Source: Aliikangiella coralliicola (GTDB taxonomy: Bacteria; Pseudomonadota; Gammaproteobacteria; Enterobacterales; Kangiellaceae). Taken from it: a stretch of 64,000 nucleotides of DNA. The position numbers and the translations under genes are program-made. Positions 1,595 to 15,798 of the stretch are shown piece by piece (positions within the stretch are counted from its first letter, which is position 1; each line of letters begins with the position of its first letter). The notes beneath the pieces are model-generated. The model was given only the letters and a program-made list of their open reading frames with translations, ran no database searches and was not told where the DNA came from. The DNA lies in the NCBI RefSeq assembly GCF_007004725.1, contig NZ_ML660164.1:124001-188000 (forward strand), in the 5' to 3' direction.

Positions 1595-3002
1595 TTTTGT
1601 ATCAACGATAGGTGATATCGCACAAGTCTTCGATGGACCTCATGCTACGCCAAAGAAAATAGAAGAAGGGCCATATTTCTTAAGTATATCTAGCCTCGAA
1701 AAAGGAGCTCTTGATTTATCTAAATCAGCTCACGTTAGTGAAGAAGACTTTAAAAAATGGACTAAAAGAGTAACCCCTAAAGAGGGGGATGTTTTGTTTT
1801 CTTATGAAACACGTCTTGGTGATGCTGCTTTAATGCTGCCTGGAATAACTGCTTGTTTGGGGAGACGAATGGGGTTGTTAAGACCAAATAGAGAAAAGGT
1901 AATTCCTGAATATTTATTATATGCGTATCTTTCTCCTGCGTTTCAAGAAACCATCCGAGCCAATACAATTCATGGTGCGACAGTTGATCGAATAGCACTT
2001 AAAGAAATGCCATCTTTTGAAATAAGAATTCCGCCCATTGATGAACAGAAGAGAACAGTTGAAGTTTTAAAAGCATTAGACGCTAAAATCGAACTCAACC
2101 GCCAAACCAACCAAACCCTCGAACAAATCGCTCAAGCCATTTTTAGAAGCTGGTTTGTAGATTTTGATCCCACTCGTGCAAAAATTGCAGCCAAACAAAG
2201 TGGACAAGACCCAGAGCGAGCGGCTATGGCGGCTATTAGTGGCAAGTCGTTAGAAGAAATCAATAGACTTTGTGAAGAGCATGACGAGCATGGAAGCACT
2301 AATGTCGCGGGCGCAGGAAGCGCAGGAGCGACGCTAAAGCAATTAAAAGAAACAGCAGCTTTGTTTCCTGATGCTTTGGTTGATAGTGAGTTGGGGGAGA
2401 TTCCTGCGGGGTGGGGAACTGGTAAACTAAGTGATCTTGCGGAATTTAAAAGAGAGAGGTTTGAAGTTTCTGAACTTACTTTTGAAAACTACATTTCAAC
2501 TGAGAACATGCTGGAAAATAAAAGTGGCATTACAAGGGCTTCATCGTTACCCAAAGTGAAAACTGTCCCGCGCTTTGAAAAAGGGGATATTTTAGTTTCG
2601 AATATTCGTCCTTACTTCAAAAAAATATGGCTCGCTCACTTCGAAGGTGGGCGTTCGGGAGACGTGTTAGGGTTTAAATGCAAAGAACCGGATCAAGTTG
2701 AATATCTTTATAATTTTCTTTATCAAGATTCGTTCTTCGAATTCATGATGTTGACTTCTAAAGGTGCAAAAATGCCTAGAGGAGATAAAAACGCGATTCA
2801 AGGTCTAGAGATTATATTACCTTCGAATGAATTGAGAAAAAGATATTCGAGTCTAGTTAAGTTTTTTTATCCAAAATCGTATGAGCTTGTAAGAGAAAGT
2901 GAAACTCTTAAGAATATTCGAAATATGCTATTGCCTAAGCTACTGTCAGGCGATATAGATCCTCTGTTAGATGCAGAAGATAAAGGCTATATGTATGTCT
3001 AA
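1587..3002 (+). CDS. hsdS: Type I restriction-modification specificity subunit HsdS
   Basis: DNA-recognition subunit that sets the target of the HsdM/HsdR complex. At 471 residues it has the usual two variable target-recognition halves, separated by a conserved helical spacer (IELNRQTNQTLEQIAQAIFR, SWFVDFDPTRAK) and the restart of the second half at SELGEIPAGWG. The C-terminus carries LLPKLLSGDI, typical of the distal helix. A low-complexity Gly/Ala stretch (GAGSAGAT) sits between the halves. The ATG lies inside the hsdM end (ATGTCTGA). The next gene starts within the last codons of hsdS, so the operon is tightly packed. Confidence 0.93.
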   Translation: MSDFVSTIGDIAQVFDGPHATPKKIEEGPYFLSISSLEKGALDLSKSAHVSEEDFKKWTKRVTPKEGDVLFSYETRLGDAALMLPGITACLGRRMGLLRPNREKVIPEYLLYAYLSPAFQETIRANTIHGATVDRIALKEMPSFEIRIPPIDEQKRTVEVLKALDAKIELNRQTNQTLEQIAQAIFRSWFVDFDPTRAKIAAKQSGQDPERAAMAAISGKSLEEINRLCEEHDEHGSTNVAGAGSAGATLKQLKETAALFPDALVDSELGEIPAGWGTGKLSDLAEFKRERFEVSELTFENYISTENMLENKSGITRASSLPKVKTVPRFEKGDILVSNIRPYFKKIWLAHFEGGRSGDVLGFKCKEPDQVEYLYNFLYQDSFFEFMMLTSKGAKMPRGDKNAIQGLEIILPSNELRKRYSSLVKFFYPKSYELVRESETLKNIRNMLLPKLLSGDIDPLLDAEDKGYMYV

Positions 3003-4731
3003 ACTTGAAAAGATAGCTATTAAGAACATAAAAGGAATTTCAAACAAATCGTTTGATCTACAGCTGTTTCCAAATAAACCTTCGATTTTGGTAGCTCCGA
3101 ACGGTTTTGGGAAAAGCTCATTAGCATGTGCATTTAACTCAATGAATAATGCCAGAATAGACCTGGCTGAATGTAATCATTTCAATAAAGATAAAGCTAA
3201 AAAGCCTGAAATAGTTATTCAATTTGACGGAACTCAATTTAAAGCAACAGAGAACTCGAATACGATATTGAAAAACTTGGGAGTTTCGGTCATCAATAGC
3301 CATGTGGTTCCAGATGCTAAAAAACGAAGGATAGGTGGTTTTACTGCAGTAACTACATCCTTAAAGGTTAGCCCTGTAGTGCTCATTGACAATATTCCTG
3401 ATAAGGTTGATTTTTCGTACAAATATTCAGATCTTAAAACTGAATTCGGCCCCAGTGGTAAGGCATTGCCTAATGCGTCGAAACTATTATCTGAATTGGC
3501 GTTTGTTAGTTTAATAGAAAGAGAGATTAACTTTTCTGATTTCAAAAAGAAGCTGAAGTATAAAAATCCAATTACTCGAGTTGTCGAAGAGATTAATACT
3601 TTTGAGGGAACTGCAGTTCAGATTCAAGCTCGCATTGAATCTGACTTGTTAGACCAATTGCGTGCGGTTGATGCTTTAAAATCTTTAGCCGACCTTATAC
3701 GAGAGTACAATGATACTTCTGAAGTAGAAGCTTATTTATTAGCTTGGCAGATTGCTGAATTATCACGAAATCCTGACTTCAAATTAGCGATAGAATATAG
3801 AGTTTATTTGAATGAGAAGCTGTTTTTCGATGAGCTTTTAAGTGCGGCTGATACCACTCGGCATAAGATTAAAACTAAAGAAGAAAAGAAAAAGCAAAAA
3901 AAACGATTGGTTGTTAATTTTCCTGATGCTGATGATATGTCTAACGGCCAGAGAGATATATTGTCATTCATTGCTCAAATCCAAAGATCACTTAAAAAGC
4001 TAAAAAAACAAAACTGCATCCTAGTAATTGATGAAATATTCGACTATTTAGATGATGCCAACTTAGTCGCGTTCCAATACTATGTGACTCAGATTATCGA
4101 ACGGTTCAAAAAACAAGAGCGAAACATTTTTCCTTTGCTTCTTACACACTTAGACCCTGGATGTTTTAAGCATTTTTGTTTTAATAAGCATAAGTTACAA
4201 ATTAGATATCTCAATAGAGACTCAGAATTAAACGAACCTGTTTTCCTTAAAATAGTTAAAAATAGGAAAGATCAAGCGATTGAAAATGAACTAAGCAAGT
4301 ATCATTTCCACTATCACCCTCACGAAGTAGATTTAGAAGACGACTTTCAGCGTCTTAATATGCGAAAAGCGTGGGGGAAATCTCATTCATTCTACAGTGC
4401 AGTAAATCAAGAATTGAGAAAATATCTTGAGTCAAGAGAGTTTGATCCTATAGCAATATTGTTTGCAGTAAGAATTAAAATCGAGGAAATTGCTTACGGA
4501 AAGTTAGCTAACCAGGAGCAGCAAACAGCATTTCTTGAAGAGCACGGGACATCCAAAAAGCTAGATTATTGTCATGGTATTGGAATGGATGTACCTGAAT
4601 CCCACTATCTTTTAGGACTAATTTATAATGATAATCTGCATTGGAATAATAAGCGGGATTACTCAACACCTTTAATTGCCAAGCTAGAGAACTTCACTAT
4701 TAGAAAGATGATTGCCGAGGTGTTTTCTTGA
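2995..4731 (+). CDS. SMC/RecF-like AAA ATPase embedded in the hsd operon
   Basis: A 578-residue ATPase of the ABC/SMC/RecF type. I chose ATG 2995 (MSKLEKIAIKNIKG), which overlaps hsdS by 8 bases, over the upstream 2971 because homologous N-termini begin with such a beta-strand. Visible motifs are the Walker A APNGFGKSS at residues 34-42, an ABC-signature-like SNGQRDILSF, and the Walker B ILVIDEIFDYLDD, followed by a C-terminal extension of about 200 residues. ATPases of this kind are known as restriction-linked ORFs in type I loci. A role as accessory defence protein is inferred from position; no effector nuclease motif is evident. Confidence 0.8.
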   Translation: MSKLEKIAIKNIKGISNKSFDLQLFPNKPSILVAPNGFGKSSLACAFNSMNNARIDLAECNHFNKDKAKKPEIVIQFDGTQFKATENSNTILKNLGVSVINSHVVPDAKKRRIGGFTAVTTSLKVSPVVLIDNIPDKVDFSYKYSDLKTEFGPSGKALPNASKLLSELAFVSLIEREINFSDFKKKLKYKNPITRVVEEINTFEGTAVQIQARIESDLLDQLRAVDALKSLADLIREYNDTSEVEAYLLAWQIAELSRNPDFKLAIEYRVYLNEKLFFDELLSAADTTRHKIKTKEEKKKQKKRLVVNFPDADDMSNGQRDILSFIAQIQRSLKKLKKQNCILVIDEIFDYLDDANLVAFQYYVTQIIERFKKQERNIFPLLLTHLDPGCFKHFCFNKHKLQIRYLNRDSELNEPVFLKIVKNRKDQAIENELSKYHFHYHPHEVDLEDDFQRLNMRKAWGKSHSFYSAVNQELRKYLESREFDPIAILFAVRIKIEEIAYGKLANQEQQTAFLEEHGTSKKLDYCHGIGMDVPESHYLLGLIYNDNLHWNNKRDYSTPLIAKLENFTIRKMIAEVFS

Positions 4732-4779: not shown

Positions 4780-5784
4780 ATGAATACAGCCATGCCTAAA
4801 CACCAACCCCCATTTACCCTCAACAACAAAATCCTCTCACAAGTTGCAGAGATCAGCGAGGCAATGGGACGTTTATCTGTTGTATTCGAACAAGAACAAT
4901 CACTCAAACTTCGCCGCGTTAATCGAATGCGAACCATTCAAGGCTCTTTAGCGATAGAAGGCAATACACTCTCAGAAGAACAAATCACCGCCATATTAGA
5001 TGGCAAGCGAATTATCGCACCACCTAAAGAAGTTAAAGAAGCAAGTAATGCCATAGCGGTTTATGAGCAACTCGATCAATGGCAGCCAGAAAAAGGAAAA
5101 CATCTGTTGGCTGCCCACAAAGTGTTAATGCTCGGCTTAGAAGATGACGCTGGAACTTATCGTAGTGGCGGAGTAGGCGTAATGTCCGGCAAAAAAGTCG
5201 TTCACATGGCACCACAAGCAGAACGCGTACCGGGTTTAATGAAAGCACTATTTACCTGGTTAAAAAATTCCGATGCACACCCGCTAATTACCAGCAGCGT
5301 ATTTCATTATGAATTTGAATTTATTCATCCCTTTGCCGATGGCAATGGTCGAATGGGGCGATTGTGGCAAACATTAATCCTCAGCAAATGGCATTCAGTG
5401 TTCGCTTACATTCCAGTAGAAAGCCTGGTTCATCAACACCAAGACAATTATTATCTGGCGATCAGGCAAAGCACCGCTCAAGGCGAATCAACTCCTTTTA
5501 TTGAATTTATGTTAGGGATGATTTACCAAGCCATTAAAGAATTGTCAGAAACTTCAACTACCCAGAAAACTGACCAGAAAACTACCCAGAAGACTACTCA
5601 AAATCAGCAAGCCATTTTAGACTATTTAAAAATACATCCCCAAGCTAGCCGAAAAGAATTGGCGGAAATGATTGATACCATAACTGAAAGTGGCGTGAAA
5701 TATAACCTAAAAGCGCTTCAGGATATGGGGTTACTGAAACGAATTGGCTCAGCACGATCAGGTCACTGGAAGGTATTGGATTAG
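4780..5784 (+). CDS. Fic family AMPylase-type protein with C-terminal winged helix
   Basis: Fic proteins transfer AMP (or another nucleotide moiety) to target hydroxyls. The 334-residue protein has the complete catalytic motif HPFADGNGRMGR at residues 183-194, including the catalytic His. It also has an intact N-terminal inhibitory-helix motif of the (S/T)xxxE(G/N) type, S56-LAI-E60-G61, so it is probably auto-inhibited. A Gln/Lys/Thr-rich repeat linker (TTQKTDQKTTQKTTQ) leads to a winged-helix domain (ASRKELAEMI to GLLKRIGS), which suggests DNA binding and autoregulation. ATG 4780 or ATG 4792 could be the start. It lies 11 bases before hsdR; fic genes are common inside type I loci. Confidence 0.9.
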   Translation: MNTAMPKHQPPFTLNNKILSQVAEISEAMGRLSVVFEQEQSLKLRRVNRMRTIQGSLAIEGNTLSEEQITAILDGKRIIAPPKEVKEASNAIAVYEQLDQWQPEKGKHLLAAHKVLMLGLEDDAGTYRSGGVGVMSGKKVVHMAPQAERVPGLMKALFTWLKNSDAHPLITSSVFHYEFEFIHPFADGNGRMGRLWQTLILSKWHSVFAYIPVESLVHQHQDNYYLAIRQSTAQGESTPFIEFMLGMIYQAIKELSETSTTQKTDQKTTQKTTQNQQAILDYLKIHPQASRKELAEMIDTITESGVKYNLKALQDMGLLKRIGSARSGHWKVLD

Positions 5785-5795
5785 AAGGTACAAGA

Positions 5796-8700
5796 ATGAT
5801 AACTGAAGATCAACTAGAACAACTCTGTATCGAATGGTTCCAAGAATCAAACTACGATTATATCTGCGGCTACGATATCGCACCTGATGGAAATAGTCCC
5901 GAACGAAAAGACTATCGTCAAATAATTCTTCATGATCGTTTACTGAGTCAATTAGAAGTTATAAACCCAAACATCCCAATAACAACTCTCGAACAAGTCG
6001 CTGCTCAATTATCTAAACCAGTAACACCAGTATTAATAAAAAACAACAAAGCCTTTCATCAATTCCTACTCGAAGGCGTAAAAGTCGAATTTAAAGATAA
6101 TAACGGTGAAGAGAAAATAGAATACGTTCAGCTGGTTGATTTCAACAAGGTGACAAATAATCAATTCCTAGTCGTAAACCAATTCACTATCACCGGTAGC
6201 AAAGGTAATAGACGCCCTGATGTTGTTGTGTTTGTTAATGGATTGCCCTTGGCCGTATTAGAACTTAAAAATCCCGCAGATAACAATGCGGATATTTGGT
6301 CTGCTTACCAACAACTTCAAACTTACAAAGAAGAAATACCGGATTTATTTATTTTTAACGAAGCGTTGGTAGTAAGCGATGGTCTTAATGCGCGAGTTGG
6401 CTCACTAACCGCTAGCAAAGAACGCTTTATGCCTTGGCGAACTGTTGATAATGAAAACGACAAGCCGCTCAATGAGTATTTTTTAGAAACACTAGTAAAA
6501 GGATTTTTTAAACCAGAGCTGTTTTTAGATTACATCCGGCACTTTGTGTTATTTGAGAATGACGCCGACCAAATTATTAAAAAGATCGCGGGTTACCATC
6601 AATTTCATGCTGTTCGCGCTGCAGTTAAAGCGACCGTCATTGCTGCTAAGAAAAATGAAATTGCGGAACCTAGAGCGAACTACGCTAATGAGGTTGAGCC
6701 TGGTTCTGGTAAAGCCGGGGTAGTGTGGCATACCCAAGGTTCAGGTAAATCTATTTCTATGGTTTGCTACGCTGGTAAATTATTGGCGCAACCGGAAATG
6801 AATAACCCAACTATTGTAGTTGTTACTGATCGAAATGATTTGGATGGACAATTATTCAATACATTTGGTATGGCCAGTGAAACCTTAAAGCAAACACCTG
6901 TTCAAGCAAGTGATAGAGACGATTTACGAGATATACTAGCTTCAAGACAAGCGGGCGGTATCGTGTTTACTACAGTACAAAAGTTCGCTTTATTAAAAGA
7001 CGAAAAAGAACACCCGAGGCTCAGCGAACGCAGAAATGTTGTTGTCGTTAGCGATGAAGCACACCGAAGCCAATATGGTGATAAAGGTAAATTTAATCCA
7101 CAAACTGGCGAGTATGTCTTTGGATATTCCAAGCATATGCGTGATGCCTTACCCAATGCTTCATTTATCGGATTCACCGGAACGCCAATATCAAATGCGG
7201 ATAAAGACACCCAAGCGGTATTCGGTGGTTATGTATCTATCTACGATATTCAAGATGCGGTAGATGATGGTTCAACTGTTCCTATCTATTATGAATCACG
7301 TTTAGCCAAACTCGATATTAAACAAAGTGAAATCGAATCACTTAATGACGAATTTGAAGAAGTCATTGAAGACGAAGAAGACGTCGCTGAGCGAGAAAAA
7401 ACGAAATCCAAGTGGGCTGCGCTAGAAAAACTCGTTGGTGCAGAACCAAGGTTAAAACAAGTCGCCAATGATCTAGTGACACATTTTAAGAACAGAAATA
7501 AGGGAATGAAAGTACCTGGCAAAGCCATGATAGTTTGTATGAGCCGCGAGATCTGTGTTGATATGTACAATGCAATCAAAGCGATTAGACCCGGTTGGCA
7601 CGATGCCGATCCCGCAAGGGGCTCAATCAAAATCGTAATGACCGGTTCAGCATCAGATAAAGAAAAGCTCCAGCCGCATATTTACAACAAAGAAGTAAAA
7701 AAATTCTTCGAAAAACGATTCAAAGACGTTAATGACCCACTGCAGATAGTCGTTGTTCGCGATATGTGGTTAACCGGATTTGATGCACCTAACTGTCATA
7801 CCATGTATATCGACAAACCCATGAAAGGGCATAATCTGATGCAGGCGATTGCTCGAGTTAATCGCGTGTTCAAAGACAAGCAGGGTGGTTTAGTTGTCGA
7901 CTATATCGGAATAGCCAACGAACTTAAGAAAGCGCTTAAAACCTACACAGGCGCAAATGGCAAAGGCAAGCCAACACATGACAGCCATGAAGCCTACTCA
8001 GTTCTAATGGAAAAAATGGAAGTCGCCCGCTCTATGTTTGCAACGCCAGTAGAAGGAAAAACATTCGACATAAGCAAATACGAAACAGAAGCAGTAAAAC
8101 TATTACCTGGCGCAATGGGCCACATCATGGGGTTAGTCGGCGCGAACGACAAGCTTGATGGAAAAAGACGCTTCCTTGATGTTGTTGCCGCTATTAACAA
8201 AGCATACTCACTATGTAGTACTTTGGATGAGGTAATCCCCATCAAAAAAGAAATCGCGTTTTTCGGTTACATCAAACAAGGCATTATGAAGTTTACTTCC
8301 GTAGATAAACGCCGAAGTGACGAAGAGAAGAGTTCTGCGTTAAAGCAAATAATAGACAATGCAATAGTCTCTGAAGGAGTAGATGACATTTTCAATTTAG
8401 TCGGCTTAGACAAGCCAAATATTGGATTACTTTCTCCTGAATTTATGGAAGATGTCGCTCAAATGCCAGAAAGGAACTTAGCTGTTGAACTGCTGCAAAA
8501 ACTACTGAAAGACGAAATAAAAGCACGTCTTAAAACGGATGTCGTGTCTGAAAAAAAATACTCAGATCGAATATTAGAAACGATAAGGAAATATCACAAC
8601 AGAGCAATTGAAACTGCACAGGTTATTGAAGAACTGATCCAAATGGCCAAAGACATGGCTGCCGATGCAGAGATGGCAGAAAAGTCTGGGCTGAATCCCG

Positions 8701-8975
8701 ACGAAATCGCTTTTTATCGGGCGCTTATTCAAAACGAGTCAGCGATAAAGGAATTAGGAGATAATAAACTTAGAGAGCTAGCTAAGTTTGTAACGGCTAA
8801 ATTAAGAAGCTCAACTACAGTTGACTGGCAGGTAAGAGACAGCGTTAGAGCGAAGTTGAGAAACCTTGTTAGAAGAGCACTTAAAAGATGGAAATATCCT
8901 CCGGACAAGTCAGATGAAGCCATTGACCTATGCTTGAAGCAGGCTGAAGCTTTAAGTGAGAGTTGGAGTAATTAA
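5796..8975 (+). CDS. hsdR: Type I restriction endonuclease subunit HsdR
   Basis: Motor and nuclease subunit that translocates DNA and cleaves it away from the recognition site. The 1059 residues run in family order: PD-(D/E)xK nuclease (D142, then E156-L-K158 within LAVLELKNPAD), SF2 helicase with Walker A HTQGSGKS (312-319), DEAH box (420-423) and the later motifs FTGTPI and QAIARVNRVF, then a C-terminal helical domain that binds the methylase core. Full length and no frameshift, so the enzyme is probably active together with HsdM and HsdS. It follows fic by 11 bases. Confidence 0.96.
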   Translation: MITEDQLEQLCIEWFQESNYDYICGYDIAPDGNSPERKDYRQIILHDRLLSQLEVINPNIPITTLEQVAAQLSKPVTPVLIKNNKAFHQFLLEGVKVEFKDNNGEEKIEYVQLVDFNKVTNNQFLVVNQFTITGSKGNRRPDVVVFVNGLPLAVLELKNPADNNADIWSAYQQLQTYKEEIPDLFIFNEALVVSDGLNARVGSLTASKERFMPWRTVDNENDKPLNEYFLETLVKGFFKPELFLDYIRHFVLFENDADQIIKKIAGYHQFHAVRAAVKATVIAAKKNEIAEPRANYANEVEPGSGKAGVVWHTQGSGKSISMVCYAGKLLAQPEMNNPTIVVVTDRNDLDGQLFNTFGMASETLKQTPVQASDRDDLRDILASRQAGGIVFTTVQKFALLKDEKEHPRLSERRNVVVVSDEAHRSQYGDKGKFNPQTGEYVFGYSKHMRDALPNASFIGFTGTPISNADKDTQAVFGGYVSIYDIQDAVDDGSTVPIYYESRLAKLDIKQSEIESLNDEFEEVIEDEEDVAEREKTKSKWAALEKLVGAEPRLKQVANDLVTHFKNRNKGMKVPGKAMIVCMSREICVDMYNAIKAIRPGWHDADPARGSIKIVMTGSASDKEKLQPHIYNKEVKKFFEKRFKDVNDPLQIVVVRDMWLTGFDAPNCHTMYIDKPMKGHNLMQAIARVNRVFKDKQGGLVVDYIGIANELKKALKTYTGANGKGKPTHDSHEAYSVLMEKMEVARSMFATPVEGKTFDISKYETEAVKLLPGAMGHIMGLVGANDKLDGKRRFLDVVAAINKAYSLCSTLDEVIPIKKEIAFFGYIKQGIMKFTSVDKRRSDEEKSSALKQIIDNAIVSEGVDDIFNLVGLDKPNIGLLSPEFMEDVAQMPERNLAVELLQKLLKDEIKARLKTDVVSEKKYSDRILETIRKYHNRAIETAQVIEELIQMAKDMAADAEMAEKSGLNPDEIAFYRALIQNESAIKELGDNKLRELAKFVTAKLRSSTTVDWQVRDSVRAKLRNLVRRALKRWKYPPDKSDEAIDLCLKQAEALSESWSN

Positions 8976-9011: not shown

Positions 9012-10175
9012 ATGGCGAATAATCTAAAAACTATATCAATTTCTTCAAACGAATCTTTACAATCTATAGAAGATTTTATTGAAAAAGTAAGTTCAGGAAC
9101 TCAATATAAAATAAGGCTTCCGTCGCGCCTAAATACTCGTGGAGCCTTGGGGATTGAGGTCGCAGTTATCCAACTGATTGGAACTTGGTTGAAGAGTTCG
9201 AAATATAAAAAAATACTTCATAGTTATCAGAGACCTCAGCCAGAGGATTTTAAAGGTTTGTGTTCTACAATTTATGGAATTGCGGGACTGTCGCTTGTTG
9301 ATGAAGTTTGGGATATCGAAAAGTCATACGTAAATAAAGGGCTGGCGTTAGAGGAGGCGAAGCTCAGCATTGAAAAATTAAGAAATAAGAAGTTTGAGGA
9401 AAGCTTTACTAGCCGATATTTTGGTATCCCATGTATAAAAACTCCGAGCTACGATAGAGAGTTTGATATGCCAGTGTACAATAAGAAAAAAGGGGATGCC
9501 GAGGTAATAGAGAGCGGGCCGTTTGAAAGTTTACTTAAAGGCGTTTTAGATTATGTGATTGGTGGAAAGAGCAGGGTAAAGAGGTTAAATAATAGAATTG
9601 GGGTGGGAGAATTATCTGAGTTGCTTTGGGAATCGTTCAAAAACACCCATGATCATGGCCGAATTGAAGAGAATGGAAATGAATTGTCATCGAATTTCAG
9701 AGGAATGATTGTTCAACAACAAGATTTAACAAGTGAGTATTTCGATATTTGGTGTGGAGACAAACCTACTCTTAAACAAAAACTGTTCAGAGAAAGCTGT
9801 TTTTCAAAAAATATGAAAAGCCATATATTGGATATATCAGTTGTAGATTTAGGAGCCGGAATCATAGAGTTGGCAAAAGTTAAGTCCAGGCTTGAGGATA
9901 GCAAAGAAATCTTACTTTGGTGCTTAGAGGATGGAAAGTCTAGATTGTCTGGAAGCAGTAGAGGAGAAGGTTTTACTAAAATTCTAAACAAAGTGGCTGA
10001 AAATAAGGGGTGGATAAGAATTCGAACTGGAAATCTATTACTTGAAAAAACCTTTCATGGTACCAGTCAAGGAATAGATATATCTGATATAGTAATTGTG
10101 GGAAATAGAGTAGCGGGGACATCTTTACATATTTCGATTCCTTTAAATAACAATACAAACAAAGGGGAGTGTTAG
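9012..10175 (+). CDS. GHKL-type ATPase (HATPase_c fold), first gene of a putative two-gene defence module
   Basis: A 387-residue protein whose C-terminal half carries the Bergerat ATP-fold boxes: N-box E207-xxx-N211-xxx-H215 (ESFKNTHDH), G1 box DLGAGI at 279-284, a G2-like GSSRGEGF at 314-321 and a G3 GT at 369-370. There is no DHp/H-box and no transmembrane segment, so it is not a classical sensor kinase. The first 190 residues are unrecognised and helical in character. Its stop is one base from the next ATG, implying translational coupling. It follows hsdR by 36 bases on the same strand. Role unknown; Hsp90/MutL/Morc-like conformational ATPase activity is an inference from the fold. Confidence 0.7.
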   Translation: MANNLKTISISSNESLQSIEDFIEKVSSGTQYKIRLPSRLNTRGALGIEVAVIQLIGTWLKSSKYKKILHSYQRPQPEDFKGLCSTIYGIAGLSLVDEVWDIEKSYVNKGLALEEAKLSIEKLRNKKFEESFTSRYFGIPCIKTPSYDREFDMPVYNKKKGDAEVIESGPFESLLKGVLDYVIGGKSRVKRLNNRIGVGELSELLWESFKNTHDHGRIEENGNELSSNFRGMIVQQQDLTSEYFDIWCGDKPTLKQKLFRESCFSKNMKSHILDISVVDLGAGIIELAKVKSRLEDSKEILLWCLEDGKSRLSGSSRGEGFTKILNKVAENKGWIRIRTGNLLLEKTFHGTSQGIDISDIVIVGNRVAGTSLHISIPLNNNTNKGEC

Positions 10176-10176
10176 A

Positions 10177-12375
10177 ATGTTTGTATTCGATTGCTATTCC
10201 GAGGAAAAGAATTGCTTAGTATTGTTTTTAGGACAATATGATCCGCGATCTAGAGCATCACTATCAAGTGAAATTCAAGAGGCATACAAACAAAGTTTAA
10301 CTCCTGAGGTTATTATATTTTTATATCCTAAATACATTTCTTCTGAAATTTCAGAATTGTTGTTAGATAACAGCTTTATCATTGACATTACTCGGCAAAA
10401 ACACTCTCAGGTTATTTGTGTACATTTCGATAAACATGGCGTGTTAAAAATACAGAAAAACTTGTCTAACGAGGGTAATTCCAATGCGTTACCAGATATG
10501 AAATATTTGTCAAGAGATATCACTAAATATGGATACCGACATCTTTTAGATTTGCGAAAAAATGAAGTTTTAGTGCGCTCTCCTGCTGGTACTATCTTTG
10601 TGAAGCCATCAGGCAAAGAAAAGGAAGAGTTTATCTATGCTTCTGCTCTGGCTAGAAATAGTTGTGAACATCAGTTTTTAGCAATGTCTTTATTAAGCTT
10701 TTTTCCGGCTGATAGAGAAATAGAGTATATCTACATCGATACTGCTAGCATCTCAGCTATTGCAGAATCTTTAACTTATTATTTGTCACGTTTTCAAAAT
10801 ACCAATTGTAAACAAGTTAAATATGAGAGTTTTAGTTCGTATGATGGAATGGATACTCAATGCCCTGATAATACAGATAGTGCCTGGGTTATTATTTCTG
10901 CTTCAGCGAGCATGAGTATGGGAAAGAAAATAGTCAAGTCCTGGCGATTAAACCCTAAACAAGTGATTACAATATTATCGTACCAGTCAACGTTGGCTGA
11001 TACAGAAGACAATATTGGAAATGCGCTTGTTTTTTCAGTTGATGATTATTCAAGTAGAGATGATAAAAGCAAATCTCCAGTTAAAGTACAAGTCCAAGGA
11101 GAGAGTTTTGCAGCCGAAATTTCAACCCCCATACCTATTTTGTTCGGTTTAGCGCACAAACCCAAACTTATTGACAGCGCAATTTATAAATATACAAAAA
11201 AAGGTACTTTTTCGTTGAACAGAAAATCCGTAAGAGTACACGTGGATTATTCAGAGCTCAGAAAGAACTATTTATCTAAAGGAAAGGTTTCCGGAAAGTT
11301 ATTTGAGTGGCTGAATCAAGTTGTAAAGTGGTCAATTCCAAAGAATTTGAAATGTATTGTTATAGGTAATGATGAATCCGACATTATTTTTCTTAAAGAT
11401 GTAAAGCATGTTTTAAAGAACAATGGATTCGAATTGAAGAATATAACTGAAATTCATGCAGATTCACACAGTGAAATGTGCGAGATTGGCGAAGGTGGAG
11501 TGTTAATATTAAGTTCTGCTATCAGCTCAGGACATAACTTTGTAGATGTAAATCGTGCGTTAAGATTGGCTGGACACAAGGGAATGAGGATCTTTGTTAC
11601 CGCATTTACAACGTCTCATACGGTTAAAGAGTTTAATTTGTTTAAGCAAAGTCTAACTCAAGGTTTTAATGGTTTTAGATATGCTTTTTTTACTTATAAA
11701 AAAATAAGCTTAGGAGATAAAAGCATTTCTTCTTGGGAAAGTGAGAAAATGTGGATTACAGGTTTAATAAATGGTGCAAAAGATGAAGAGCCGGGATTAC
11801 ATTATTGGTTGAGTAGAAAAAGTATGTTAGAGAAAGTAGGAACAGGCCTAGATGGAAAAGTAGGTTTGAAGTTCAGTAATTCAACTGGAAAGCTACAGTT
11901 TGCACCTGATTTTGTATTTTGGCCTCCATCTTATGAGGTTGACAAGGTTTGCCATGAGGCAGTTTATATGACTGTTTGCGCTATTCTACAAAACGCTCGC
12001 GACAATTACGTTTCCGGTCAAAAATTAGGTTCAAATATTTATCAACATAGCGTAATAGCTCCAGAAAACTTTGTTAGATTCAATGACTCTCTACTCCAAT
12101 CTTGTATATGGCGAGCCGCGTATCCTTCAGAGTTAGACTACCGACGTTCTGAAGTATTGAGTAATGATTTTCAAAGAATCTTATCTAAAATTATGGTTTC
12201 ATGTAATTCTGAACGAGGAGAGGTTTGTTTAGATTTACTAATCGCAATCGCTCTAAGATGGATAAAGCTCAGTAAAAAAGCATTAAATAAGTTACTAATT
12301 GATGCTGAAGAACATTTAGTGGAGCCGCATGCAAAGTTGCTAGTCGAACAAATAAAATTCGAATTTCAATTATAG
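10177..12375 (+). CDS. Large protein with two degenerate phosphoribosyltransferase-like lobes
   Basis: A 732-residue protein without close relatives that I recognise. Residues 439-463 (GGVLILSSAISSGHNFVDVN) read like the PRPP-loop of type I phosphoribosyltransferases, with the usual acidic pair replaced by Ser-Ser. A second, similar loop lies at 236-255 (AWVIISASASMSMGKKIVKS). Residues 138-152 (AGTIFVKPSGKEKEE) resemble the hood/flap strand of orotate PRTase. The layout suggests tandem PRTase-like folds with lost or altered catalysis, possibly nucleotide sensors. The C-terminal 150 residues are helical and unassigned. It is coupled to the GHKL gene by a one-base gap. The PRTase assignment is pattern-based and needs a profile or structure check. 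Confidence 0.5.
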   Translation: MFVFDCYSEEKNCLVLFLGQYDPRSRASLSSEIQEAYKQSLTPEVIIFLYPKYISSEISELLLDNSFIIDITRQKHSQVICVHFDKHGVLKIQKNLSNEGNSNALPDMKYLSRDITKYGYRHLLDLRKNEVLVRSPAGTIFVKPSGKEKEEFIYASALARNSCEHQFLAMSLLSFFPADREIEYIYIDTASISAIAESLTYYLSRFQNTNCKQVKYESFSSYDGMDTQCPDNTDSAWVIISASASMSMGKKIVKSWRLNPKQVITILSYQSTLADTEDNIGNALVFSVDDYSSRDDKSKSPVKVQVQGESFAAEISTPIPILFGLAHKPKLIDSAIYKYTKKGTFSLNRKSVRVHVDYSELRKNYLSKGKVSGKLFEWLNQVVKWSIPKNLKCIVIGNDESDIIFLKDVKHVLKNNGFELKNITEIHADSHSEMCEIGEGGVLILSSAISSGHNFVDVNRALRLAGHKGMRIFVTAFTTSHTVKEFNLFKQSLTQGFNGFRYAFFTYKKISLGDKSISSWESEKMWITGLINGAKDEEPGLHYWLSRKSMLEKVGTGLDGKVGLKFSNSTGKLQFAPDFVFWPPSYEVDKVCHEAVYMTVCAILQNARDNYVSGQKLGSNIYQHSVIAPENFVRFNDSLLQSCIWRAAYPSELDYRRSEVLSNDFQRILSKIMVSCNSERGEVCLDLLIAIALRWIKLSKKALNKLLIDAEEHLVEPHAKLLVEQIKFEFQL

Positions 12376-12865: not shown

Positions 12866-13039
12866 CCTATCAAGCTGTTTAAAAAAGTGCCAATCAAACT
12901 CGGTTAAGAATGGCGACAAGTGACCAAAAACATTCCCAAGTTTCTAAACCCGCCTGCAAACATTAGACTGCAGAACAATCACCCAAATTTTATCATCCAC
13001 AAGCTACCAACCACCCCAATTTTCAATTATGATACCCCA

Positions 13040-13894
13040 ATGAAAACATCAATCGACCACTTGCCAGAAAACAAACAATCCCAGCTCAAATCGGCTGTTG
13101 AGATTGTTCGAAAATACACCGACCCCGAAATGATCATTCTTTTCGGTAGCTATGCCCGTGGCGAATGGGTCGATGATCTTGACGAAGAAACCATGAATTA
13201 CCGCTACCAGAGCGACTTCGATTTATTGGTGATCACCGAAACGGCAAAACAGGCCGAAAAGGTGGAAGAAAACGGACATATGAATCAAAGCCTGAGAAGT
13301 CGGATCAGAAAAACACCCATCAGCATCATTGCTGAGTCAATCGAGTCGGTTAACTCTAATTTACGCAAGCAACAGTATTTTTTCAGTGATATTAAAAGGG
13401 AAGGCATCTTATTGTTTGATTCAGGTCGTCTTAAACTGGATGAGCCTGCTGAAATTGATGACGTTTTACGAAAAAAATTAGCACAAGAAGATCTGGATTT
13501 CTGGTTTAATAACGCAAATGAATTTTTAATAAACTTTAATGCCGCTTTAAAAAGAAAGAGTTTTAATATCGCCGCTTTTGAACTACATCAAGCCACAGAA
13601 AATCTTCTAGCTACTAATCTCCTAGTGTTTACACACTACAAACCCAGCACCCATGATATCGAAAAACTCTACTCACTAGTCAACAGCTTACACAACGAAT
13701 TTATCACCGCTTTTCCATTAACTACCGACAAAGAACAGAAACTGTTTAAATTGCTACGCCGAGCTTACGTGAATGCCCGTTACAACAAAACCTACACGAT
13801 TAATCAAGAACAACTAGAATGGTTAGCTGAGTGCGTTGAAAGACTCAAAGAGCTGACGAAGAAATTGTGCCGGGAAAAGATTGAGCGTTTTTGA
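13040..13894 (+). CDS. Nucleotidyltransferase (MNT)-HEPN fusion protein
   Basis: I start at ATG 13040 (MKTSIDHLPENKQ); the longer frame from 12920 adds 40 residues of non-domain-like sequence. The N-terminal polymerase-beta-type nucleotidyltransferase shows LFGSYARGEW (G36-S37) and the metal-binding pair in SDFDLLVITE (D59, D61). The C-terminal half is a HEPN-type helical bundle, containing AFELHQATENLL and RRAYVNARYNKTY. In two-gene MNT/HEPN toxin-antitoxin systems the nucleotidyltransferase AMPylates and neutralises the HEPN RNase; here both parts are one chain, so regulation must be intramolecular or the protein acts otherwise. The HEPN RxxxxH motif is not clearly present, so RNase activity is doubtful. 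Confidence 0.82.
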   Translation: MKTSIDHLPENKQSQLKSAVEIVRKYTDPEMIILFGSYARGEWVDDLDEETMNYRYQSDFDLLVITETAKQAEKVEENGHMNQSLRSRIRKTPISIIAESIESVNSNLRKQQYFFSDIKREGILLFDSGRLKLDEPAEIDDVLRKKLAQEDLDFWFNNANEFLINFNAALKRKSFNIAAFELHQATENLLATNLLVFTHYKPSTHDIEKLYSLVNSLHNEFITAFPLTTDKEQKLFKLLRRAYVNARYNKTYTINQEQLEWLAECVERLKELTKKLCREKIERF

Positions 13895-15096: not shown

Positions 15097-15798
15097 ATGG
15101 AATCTACCCAAGTTAAAAGCCTCAACGAATTTCACGACGTAATCAATCAAAATAAAAATCAATGGCACTGTTGGTTTTACAGAGGCCAATCTAAAGAAAA
15201 CTATAAACTCACACCCAAAGCCGGAAGAGAACCATTTTTAAGTAAGGCAAAAAATGATCAAGCTTTATTCGAAGCTTGGTATCGACATGCCGTTGGTCTT
15301 CAAGATATTAATCACTTAACTGACTGGGAAGCACTCGCCGTCGCCCAACATCATGGATTAGCGACTCGACTATTAGATTGGTCTTTTAATCCACTCAATG
15401 CACTTTACTTCGCACTATATGGTGGAAGCTTAGAAGTTAACGAAAAAGACAACTGTGTTGTATTTGCACATTATTCAACTGAAGAGTTTGTTGATACAGA
15501 AAACCATCAGTCCCCATTTGACATAAGTGGCATTTGCCGCTTTCGGCCAAACACTGTTTCCCCAAGAATTGCACAACAAGGTGGGATATTTACTGTTCAT
15601 AGCGCACCTCATTTATGTTTAGAAGAGAATTTACATAAAGATGAAAGATTACTGAAAATCATTATTGATAAATCAGTGAAAAAAGAACTATCGCAAGAGT
15701 TATCACACTATGGTGTTAACTCTTTAGGGCTATTTCCTGATTTGGATGGATTGTCTAAGCATATTAATTGGGCGTTTGTGAATTTGGATTACAGTTAA
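15097..15798 (+). CDS. FRG domain-containing protein
   Basis: A 233-residue protein whose whole length is an FRG domain: WFYRGQSKENYKLTPKAGRE (YRG at 28-30) and the second signature QHHGLATRLLDWSFNPLNAL (84-103). FRG proteins are widespread in islands and phages and are often near toxins or defence genes; the biochemical activity is not established. A good ribosome-binding region (GCAGGGAACC) precedes ATG 15097. The next gene follows by 31 bases and is probably co-transcribed. Confidence 0.85.
   Translation: MESTQVKSLNEFHDVINQNKNQWHCWFYRGQSKENYKLTPKAGREPFLSKAKNDQALFEAWYRHAVGLQDINHLTDWEALAVAQHHGLATRLLDWSFNPLNALYFALYGGSLEVNEKDNCVVFAHYSTEEFVDTENHQSPFDISGICRFRPNTVSPRIAQQGGIFTVHSAPHLCLEENLHKDERLLKIIIDKSVKKELSQELSHYGVNSLGLFPDLDGLSKHINWAFVNLDYS

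Follow-up and report, generated by a model that had tools for sequence, protein, structure and literature searches.

We describe two adjacent genes, here called A and B, in a stretch of 64,000 nucleotides from the genome of Aliikangiella coralliicola (assembly GCF_007004725.1, contig NZ_ML660164.1, positions 124,001 to 188,000 of the forward strand; the whole stretch is referred to as the window). Gene A is predicted to encode a GHKL ATPase, and gene B a protein with two phosphoribosyltransferase (PRTase)-fold domains, both of which lack the acidic pair of the phosphoribosyl pyrophosphate (PRPP) loop. PADLOC assigns the two proteins to one candidate: A matches PDC-M65A (E-value 5e-26, positions 2-341 of 398 in the profile) and B matches PDC-M65B (6.8e-80, positions 15-756 of 763). 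A preliminary description of this DNA, made from the sequence alone, had proposed the pair as an undescribed defence module; because both proteins match the M65 profiles over most of their length, the pair is instead an already catalogued candidate, PDC-M65, listed in PADLOC-DB 2.0.0 (2023). Our working interpretation, held with somewhat less than even confidence, is that B is a nucleotide-sensing pseudoenzyme that gates the ATPase switch A, and that PDC-M65 is a stand-alone phage-defence module. What we add, as far as our searches show, is the orotate phosphoribosyltransferase (OPRT) history of the B fold, a sister pair, and a variant that carries thyX. The parts of this pair are easily missed, as neither window protein had a match in Pfam or NCBIfam (for B, at a Pfam E-value of up to 5); single-sequence searches of the PDB with A and B gave no match either.

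Fold and conserved residues of the two proteins

The two genes and their conserved features are listed below, with counts referring to aligned homologues.

9012-10175, plus strand: gene A, GHKL ATPase of the PDC-M65A type, 387 amino acids (open reading frame (ORF), PADLOC profile, box conservation, structural model and Foldseek)
9630-9647, plus strand: GHKL N-box of A, residues 207-212, ESFKNT (N211 invariant, 74/74; coordinates derived from the ORF start)
9846-9860, plus strand: GHKL G1 box of A, residues 279-283, DLGAG (D279, G281 and G283 invariant, 74/74)
9963-9974, plus strand: GHKL G2 box of A, residues 318-321, GEGF (G318 and G320 invariant, 74/74)
10116-10118, plus strand: GHKL G3 box glycine of A, residue 369 (invariant, 74/74)
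10177-12375, plus strand: gene B, tandem pseudo-phosphoribosyltransferase of the PDC-M65B type, 732 amino acids (ORF, PADLOC profile, structural model, Foldseek and hhalign)
10591-10632, plus strand: OPRT-type hood motif of B domain 1, residues 139-152 (P144 and S145 74/77, F152 75/77; hhalign to OPRT)
10738-10740, plus strand: D188 of B, invariant (77/77, and in 14/14 further sequences, 11 of them not near-copies, as well as both sister proteins)
10888-10926, plus strand: PRPP-loop counterpart of B domain 1 without the acidic pair, residues 238-250 (D or E at 241 or 242 in 0/77; S241 77/77)
11500-11538, plus strand: PRPP-loop counterpart of B domain 2 without the acidic pair, residues 442-454 (D or E at 446 or 447 in 0/77; G452 74/77)
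12064-12132, plus strand: C-terminal helical region of B, residues 630-652, R634-x-N-D-x3-Q-x4-R-x5-E (R634, N636, D637, Q641 and R646 77/77; E652 73/77)

Protein A consists of an N-terminal alpha/beta region (about residues 1-165) followed by the ATPase domain (about 168-377). Its AlphaFold model (pLDDT 88.4, pTM 0.92) was compared with known structures using Foldseek, and all 50 matches listed (the best 50 of 595 at an E-value of up to 10) were GHKL proteins, among them GyrB, ParE, Topo II, Hsp90 and histidine kinase. The preliminary description had read N, G1, G2 and G3 boxes in A and no H-box, and this holds across the family: the box residues are the same in every one of the 74 aligned homologues, the N-box residue E207 is kept in at least 90% of them, and the secondary structure of the model is alpha/beta before the ATPase domain, with no H-box hairpin there. 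As the predicted model lacks a dimerisation helical hairpin bearing an H-box, we rejected histidine kinase as the identity of A. A profile of A found nine weak matches in the PDB (best E-value 0.13), namely eight histidine kinase/CheA chains and one endoribonuclease, and 9 of the 74 homologues matched HATPase_c at an E-value of 0.1 or lower (best 4.8e-5); the copy in the window gave no such match. The alignment left out six near-identical rows, the locus L027, which has no A, and three loci with a short or split A (L019, L022 and L093). The order of strands and helices in the N-terminal region, together with a GHKL/STAS-like pair of neighbours at another locus, had raised the idea of a STAS domain, and hhalign of this region against a small set of three STAS proteins gave 0.4%; we make no such assignment. 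At that other locus (L178, positions 919-2440), the GHKL protein matches HATPase_c (2.3e-5), and the product of the next gene has weak matches to STAS_2/DUF4325 and MarR; the pair differs from A/B, and its GHKL protein is weakly similar to A.

The AlphaFold model of B (pLDDT 88.1, pTM 0.79) returned PRTase-fold proteins in 41 of the 50 Foldseek matches listed (the best 50 of 1367 at an E-value of up to 10), with UMP synthase and OPRT at the top. A link to OPRT had first surfaced as weak PADLOC matches to pyrE-type genes of 192 amino acids. Aligned to a profile of nine OPRTs with hhalign, B scored 93.6% (E-value 2e-7 for a single comparison) over 173 columns that fall in domain 1 only and span nearly the whole OPRT, including both the hood at its N-terminus and the CxxCxxG tail at its C-terminus. 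Domain 1 of B is, judging by this alignment, a descendant of orotate PRTase. The profile of B matched nothing in the PDB. The top viral Foldseek match was PRPP synthetase (2.5e-4), an enzyme that has tandem PRTase folds; with a TM-score of 0.18 we regard this as a likeness of architecture only and rejected it as a relative. The preliminary description had named both folds, and we consider the fold classes, Bergerat/GHKL for A and PRTase for B, to be as good as certain.

The loop that would bind PRPP reads VIISASASMSMGK in domain 1 (residues 238-250) and VLILSSAISSGHN in domain 2 (residues 442-454), and the absence of the acidic pair from both, already noticed in the window, extends to all 77 aligned homologues. 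We therefore rejected an active type I phosphoribosyltransferase as the identity of B. Other residues have not drifted in the same way: R463 is present in 77/77, as are D188, which presumably lies near the place of the PRTase pyrophosphate loop, and S241. Because these three residues stay invariant while the acidic pair is gone, B appears to be a protein remodelled under selection and not one in decay. The homologues were collected from genomes by a scan with one C-terminal peptide pattern, which is R634-A642 itself, so the invariance within that pattern is partly circular. We also considered 14 independently found sequences (ten from plasmids and four from the PADLOC profile, the broken copy L126 excluded), of which L002, L127 and L128 are 99-100% identical to aligned rows. 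In the remaining 11, D188, S241, R463, R634, D637, Q641, R646 and E652 are kept in 11/11, and G452 and N636 in 10/11. The 77-row alignment of B excluded seven near-identical rows, including L057, and the plasmid loci are absent from the alignments of both A and B.

Pairing, distribution and variants of the pair

In the window, A and B lie on the same strand with a single base between the stop of A and the start of B, as had been described. This layout is general: at 92 of 93 loci (ten on plasmids, the best 80 of 139 genome relatives, and three contigs from a viral collection), gene A was found upstream of B in the same orientation. In the exception, L027, the sequence starts within B, and in L022 gene A is represented by its end only. 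Counting the window, 85 of 87 pairs have no more than 20 nt between the genes, the other two being L006 and L093, where the gap is larger; A is split over two frames in L019 and L093. Six near-identical loci and L001, a duplicate of the window, were dropped before these gaps and the neighbours were counted, and genes were called as the longest ORF, which makes some N-termini too long and some neighbouring ORFs doubtful. Since only 19 of 83 pairs have a same-strand gene within 100 bp upstream, and 17 of 87 have one within that distance downstream (the downstream count including contig ends), the unit usually consists of the two genes alone. A promoter scan gave 14 sites as against 15.3 in shuffled sequence, and so we make no claim of separate transcription.

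In a set of 50 genomes with B, the A profile gave 51 strong matches, every one of them a copy paired with B (G193 has two), and two weak ones. Of 398 genomes of the phylum, six have a strong A, and the same six have a full M65B; two further weak A matches (G306 and G419) were left uncounted. The PADLOC M65B profile matched 21 of these genomes, comprising the six full copies, a sister protein in G442 (discussed below), and 14 weak matches (1.2e-5 to 8.1e-4) that all belong to one family; the nine that were aligned are OPRT-like with at least 74% identity, and one of the 14 was checked in Pfam. Two of the six genomes, G511 and G545, are evidently the genomes of the loci L044 and L039, with identical coordinates and sequences. 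A decaying copy was seen in G560, another of the six (L126, contig C2, 6376-8522), where an M65B broken by a stop codon stands beside a full-length A. B is present only in the window's own genome among 149 relatives, and the pair recurs in several phyla; ten loci are on plasmids and three in the viral collection. No relative of B was found in the phage records searched, which did not include PHROGs, and a search of E. coli genomes at the DNA level gave no match of the pair. Because pairing is near-obligate and presence rare across genomes, A and B form one unit that is patchily spread, and it is very likely that they work together. The window B is a deep branch, at best 25% identical to the 76 other B proteins in the tree and 26% to a plasmid copy. 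The coupling noted in the window is thus confirmed and more than chance: each protein has its own PADLOC profile, the pair recurs in several phyla, and its homologues are not mostly solitary genes in housekeeping contexts.

A divergent pair of a GHKL protein and a tandem PRTase protein, with the same two-gene layout, occurs in G442 (L130) and on plasmid pHG1 of Cupriavidus necator H16 (L144). Its B protein is related to M65B (hhalign probability 99.6%, E-value 1.8e-23) and its A protein to A (8e-19 for L144, 5e-10 for L130); PADLOC, run on L130 alone, reported a partial M65B and no M65A. Both sister B proteins share D188, S241, R463 and E652 and have the R634-Q641 motif in part only. Their domain 1 is likewise without the acids, and domain 2 keeps DD, which suggests, from two sequences, that M65 may derive from a form with one PRPP-competent-looking domain. 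The sister pair is rare: on plasmids it occurs in the two pHG1 records only, among the 398 genomes of the phylum the one strong match is G442 (G560 gave a weak match, 8e-4, at its M65B), in the 78 genomes of the class of G442 it is again in G442 only, and none was found in viral contigs. On pHG1 (L144, 1-11043) it follows closely behind avs1b/avs1c of an Avs1 system, with one gene on the opposite strand between.

A second variant carries thyX in or beside the operon (6 of 94 loci), upstream in L004, L008, L009, L049 and L057 and downstream in L028. All six belong to one alphaproteobacterial clade, in which the B tree places L028 and L049 with L027; L057 shares 89% identity with L027, and L004, L008 and L009 share 68-85% with L049. 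The association is therefore that of a single lineage. As L028 has thyX on the other side, the link seems to have been kept through a rearrangement. The linked gene is the sole ThyX in G158, G178 and G172, the three genomes checked, all of which encode ThyA elsewhere; of three comparison genomes, two (G151 and G170) encode ThyA alone, and the third, G153, encodes only a ThyX that is not linked to the pair. The presence of thyX beside the operon points to pyrimidine metabolism, and a thymidylate-synthase domain is among the newly validated defence domains in the available part of PMC13092281. At one of these loci (L008, Rhizobium sp. NZLR1 p3), thyX-A-B stands amid several TIR-domain genes and dgt (dGTPase), followed by a multiubiquitin/ThiF cassette.

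Genomic context and the proposed mechanism

In the window, 36 bases separate the pair from the end of hsdR, which precedes it on the same strand, in agreement with the preliminary description.

5796-8975, plus strand: hsdR, upstream context, probably outside the system (TIGR00348, E-value 5.8e-188)

The genes upstream of A encode HsdM (whose frame continues past the left edge of the window), HsdS, an SMC/RecF-like ATPase (2971-4731, plus strand; PF02463, 1.7e-4), a Fic protein (4780-5784, plus strand; PF02661, 6.6e-21) and HsdR, which would make this a restriction-modification (RM) operon carrying inserted genes. Downstream are a protein combining a Polbeta nucleotidyltransferase with HEPN (12920-13894, plus strand; PF18765, 2.6e-7, and PF05168, 1.1e-14), which we take to resemble a fused MntA-HepT type VII toxin-antitoxin pair, and an FRG-domain protein (15097-15798, plus strand) that matches another PADLOC candidate, PDC-S15 (7.4e-72). 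These surroundings look like a defence island. Across 51 pairs, HSDR_N matches over the cut-off were observed within 15 kb in six cases, as against 0.38 expected (P 3e-6, about 16-fold; the null is a uniform genome-wide density with rounded genome sizes and start-to-start distances), and at 5, 10 and 45 kb in three, four and nine, as against 0.13, 0.26 and 1.15. Matches below the cut-off within 9 kb of the pair in G175 and G171 were not counted. Among 147 adjacent genes, HSDR_N had five members, SWI2_SNF2 and ResIII four each, and N6_Mtase and Methylase_S two each, the first three presumably being in part the same proteins, while in the control, 148 genes taken from 20 stretches of these genomes, no restriction family had two or more members. 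The families listed for the control include two AAA_21 members (‘putative AbiEii’) and two of HATPase_c; the test covered 147 of 168 adjacent and 148 of 165 control genes and listed the first 25 families, so that single control matches may be hidden. The proposed defence-island setting is thus borne out by the enrichment near hsdR, but not as a fixed arrangement: any piece similar to the window's HsdR, HsdM or HsdS is present at only 13 of 94 loci (near-duplicates included, within the fetched flanks), and only a minority of loci have the pair placed behind a type I RM operon. One locus adjoins Qat, and another, L092, adjoins tail-type genes as judged by eye.

We regard a defence role for A and B as probable, and we are evenly divided on whether B senses a nucleotide rather than catalyses a reaction. 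In the mechanism that we tentatively favour, the two PRTase-fold domains of B have lost the PRPP acids and kept the base-binding hood and a serine/glycine remnant of the phosphate loop, and because of this combination B would most likely bind a phosphorylated nucleotide, probably a pyrimidine, without PRPP chemistry or turnover. The level or form of this ligand would change on infection, and A, which most likely dimerises on ATP, would translate the ligand state of B into an output that is either on or off; this output would probably arrest growth or block phage replication. Such an ATP-driven dimer switch would be comparable to the one hypothesised for the GHKL domain of VcSduA in the accessible text of PMC12137116. 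A and B would be in physical contact, and action or contact would most likely involve the conserved helical region at the C-terminus of B.

Several observations weigh against this mechanism. The best Foldseek E-values are modest, at 9.9e-3 for A and 9.8e-4 for B, the latter being the only one for B below 0.001. Nine of the 50 matches listed for B are not PRTase-fold, and three of these are chains of FraB, presumably an SIS-fold protein; the ‘ISxSxSG’ loop of B also resembles sugar-phosphate SIS loops. With three of 50 listed matches we rejected an SIS fold for B and keep the likeness as a caution on the ligand. No recognisable effector domain was found in A or B, the thyX link is seen in a single alphaproteobacterial clade only and is missing in the window, and HSDR_N accounts for only 5 of the 147 adjacent genes, so a recognised RM gene is the immediate neighbour in a minority of cases. 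In the literature that we searched (bioRxiv and most subscription papers were outside its scope) we found no functional test of PDC-M65, no paper naming it, and no title on a GHKL/HATPase and PRTase defence pair or on an anti-phage link of ThyX or OPRT to the pair. PDCs are putative candidates chosen by ‘guilt-by-embedding’, with validation pending for most according to the part of PMC12988326 available to us, and another of them, PDC-M63AB, was inactive in a defence test reported in the accessible portion of PMC12409345. In PMC13092281 (DefensePredictor), figure legends mention one validated system with a PRTase and one predicted system with a HATPase, either of which may or may not be related to A/B.

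The strongest rival, which we nevertheless think unlikely, is that B still catalyses a reaction, but with altered chemistry (such as glycosyl transfer, phosphorolysis or a nucleosidase activity on pyrimidine nucleotides), is switched on by the ATPase of A and depletes a pool on infection, with the ThyX linked to some operons refilling the host's dTMP. Canonical PRPP chemistry requires the acidic pair, and no alternative set of catalytic residues was identified in B. The invariance of D188 and S241, although both loops have lost the acids, implies that the site is selected and not decaying, which is consistent with this rival, as are the DD kept in domain 2 of both sister proteins, thyX as a third gene, and the PRTase-type effectors of type III retrons (described in the available part of PMC12548924).

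A more specific form of the sensing mechanism, which is speculative and rather doubtful, would have a pyrimidine-synthesis enzyme, after duplication or fusion with a second PRTase domain, become a pyrimidine-nucleotide immune receptor without PRPP chemistry that gates a GHKL ATPase, so that a shift of the pool by the phage triggers the host response. The operon ThyX of the alphaproteobacterial clade would then be a second thymidylate synthase serving as supplier, antidote or effector, and the sister pair, with its domain 2 acids, would be a version still making or breaking the phosphoribosyl ligand. If B does sense pyrimidine nucleotides, it would show a housekeeping enzyme turned immune receptor, and in the thyX-bearing variant defence would be linked directly to the supply of thymidylate, which phages have to either use or replace.

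We find it improbable that the pair is toxin-antitoxin-like, with B as the toxin and A as a GHKL chaperone or antitoxin. The tight coupling of overlapping or near-overlapping ORFs and the carriage on ten plasmids and three viral-collection contigs would fit such a pair, but A is large and enzyme-like, unlike the usual antitoxins. ShosT, the PRTase toxin of ShosTA, would be a precedent, and the weak match of its PADLOC profile to an OPRT also fits; M65B gave no ShosT match at an E-value of up to 1.

A role outside defence, in which the pair would regulate metabolism or a stress response and be carried in variable DNA, seems slightly less probable again. It would agree with the metabolic neighbourhoods at some loci (L002 and L005) and with the 101 Pfam families among the 147 adjacent genes, few of the first 25 listed being defence-related. 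It would also agree with the B tree, which needs 5 changes of phylum label, as against the least possible 4 and a mean of 21.3 in shuffled trees, and has one bin labelled Pseudomonadota inside Bacteroidota. The tree thus tracks phyla, and the frequent cross-phylum transfer that is usual for defence genes is not shown; this and the metabolic neighbourhoods also count against our preferred mechanism. The patchy presence (1 of 149 relatives, 6 of 398 genomes in the phylum), the enrichment near hsdR and the carriage on plasmids and viral-collection contigs argue against a non-defence role. Least probable is that A/B is an auxiliary part of the type I RM system beside it, such as an ATP-driven clamp or regulator, which the 36-base distance in the window and the hsdR enrichment would favour, but RM-like pieces are seen at few loci and at none of the 11 plasmid-borne loci among the 94.

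Comparison with known systems

In domain 1, B shares the hood, the core and the C-terminal CxxCxxG tail with PyrE/OPRT. It differs in having the D188 motif in place of the OPRT pyrophosphate loop, in lacking the acidic pair (0/77), and in carrying an additional second PRTase domain and the helical C-terminus. The conflict-system PRTase family PRTase-CE (PF24390) has the PRTase domain in common with B, and the sister B of L130 matches it weakly (0.074). As window B had no PF24390 match at an E-value of up to 5, we rejected PRTase-CE as its parent family, and an M65A-like gene was found in the flanks (roughly 1.5 kb) of none of ten PRTase-CE loci over the cut-off. At the loci examined (L179-L188), PRTase-CE genes lie beside ATPase-like genes, some with a retron-type reverse-transcriptase-like gene as judged by eye.

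PRTase-fold proteins are part of two other kinds of anti-phage system. Like B, the toxin of ShosTA has this fold, as do the effectors of type III retrons in the accessible sections of PMC12548924; no reverse transcriptase was noticed among the window ORFs read by eye. On the side of A, the nearest comparison is VcSduA, a tested defence protein of the Shedu type whose N-terminal GHKL domain is a proposed control module (PMC12137116, in the portion available). There the GHKL domain is fused to a PD-(D/E)xK nuclease, whereas A/B has none; we rejected membership of this group, as neither A nor B matched a nuclease profile and no nuclease was among their listed Foldseek matches. The closest system is PDC-M65 itself, both profiles of which are matched in the window by adjacent genes on the same strand. 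It is a catalogue entry only, and the window copy is a deep branch of it, but the fold identities proposed here, an OPRT-derived double pseudoenzyme and a GHKL ATPase, make this blank candidate testable.

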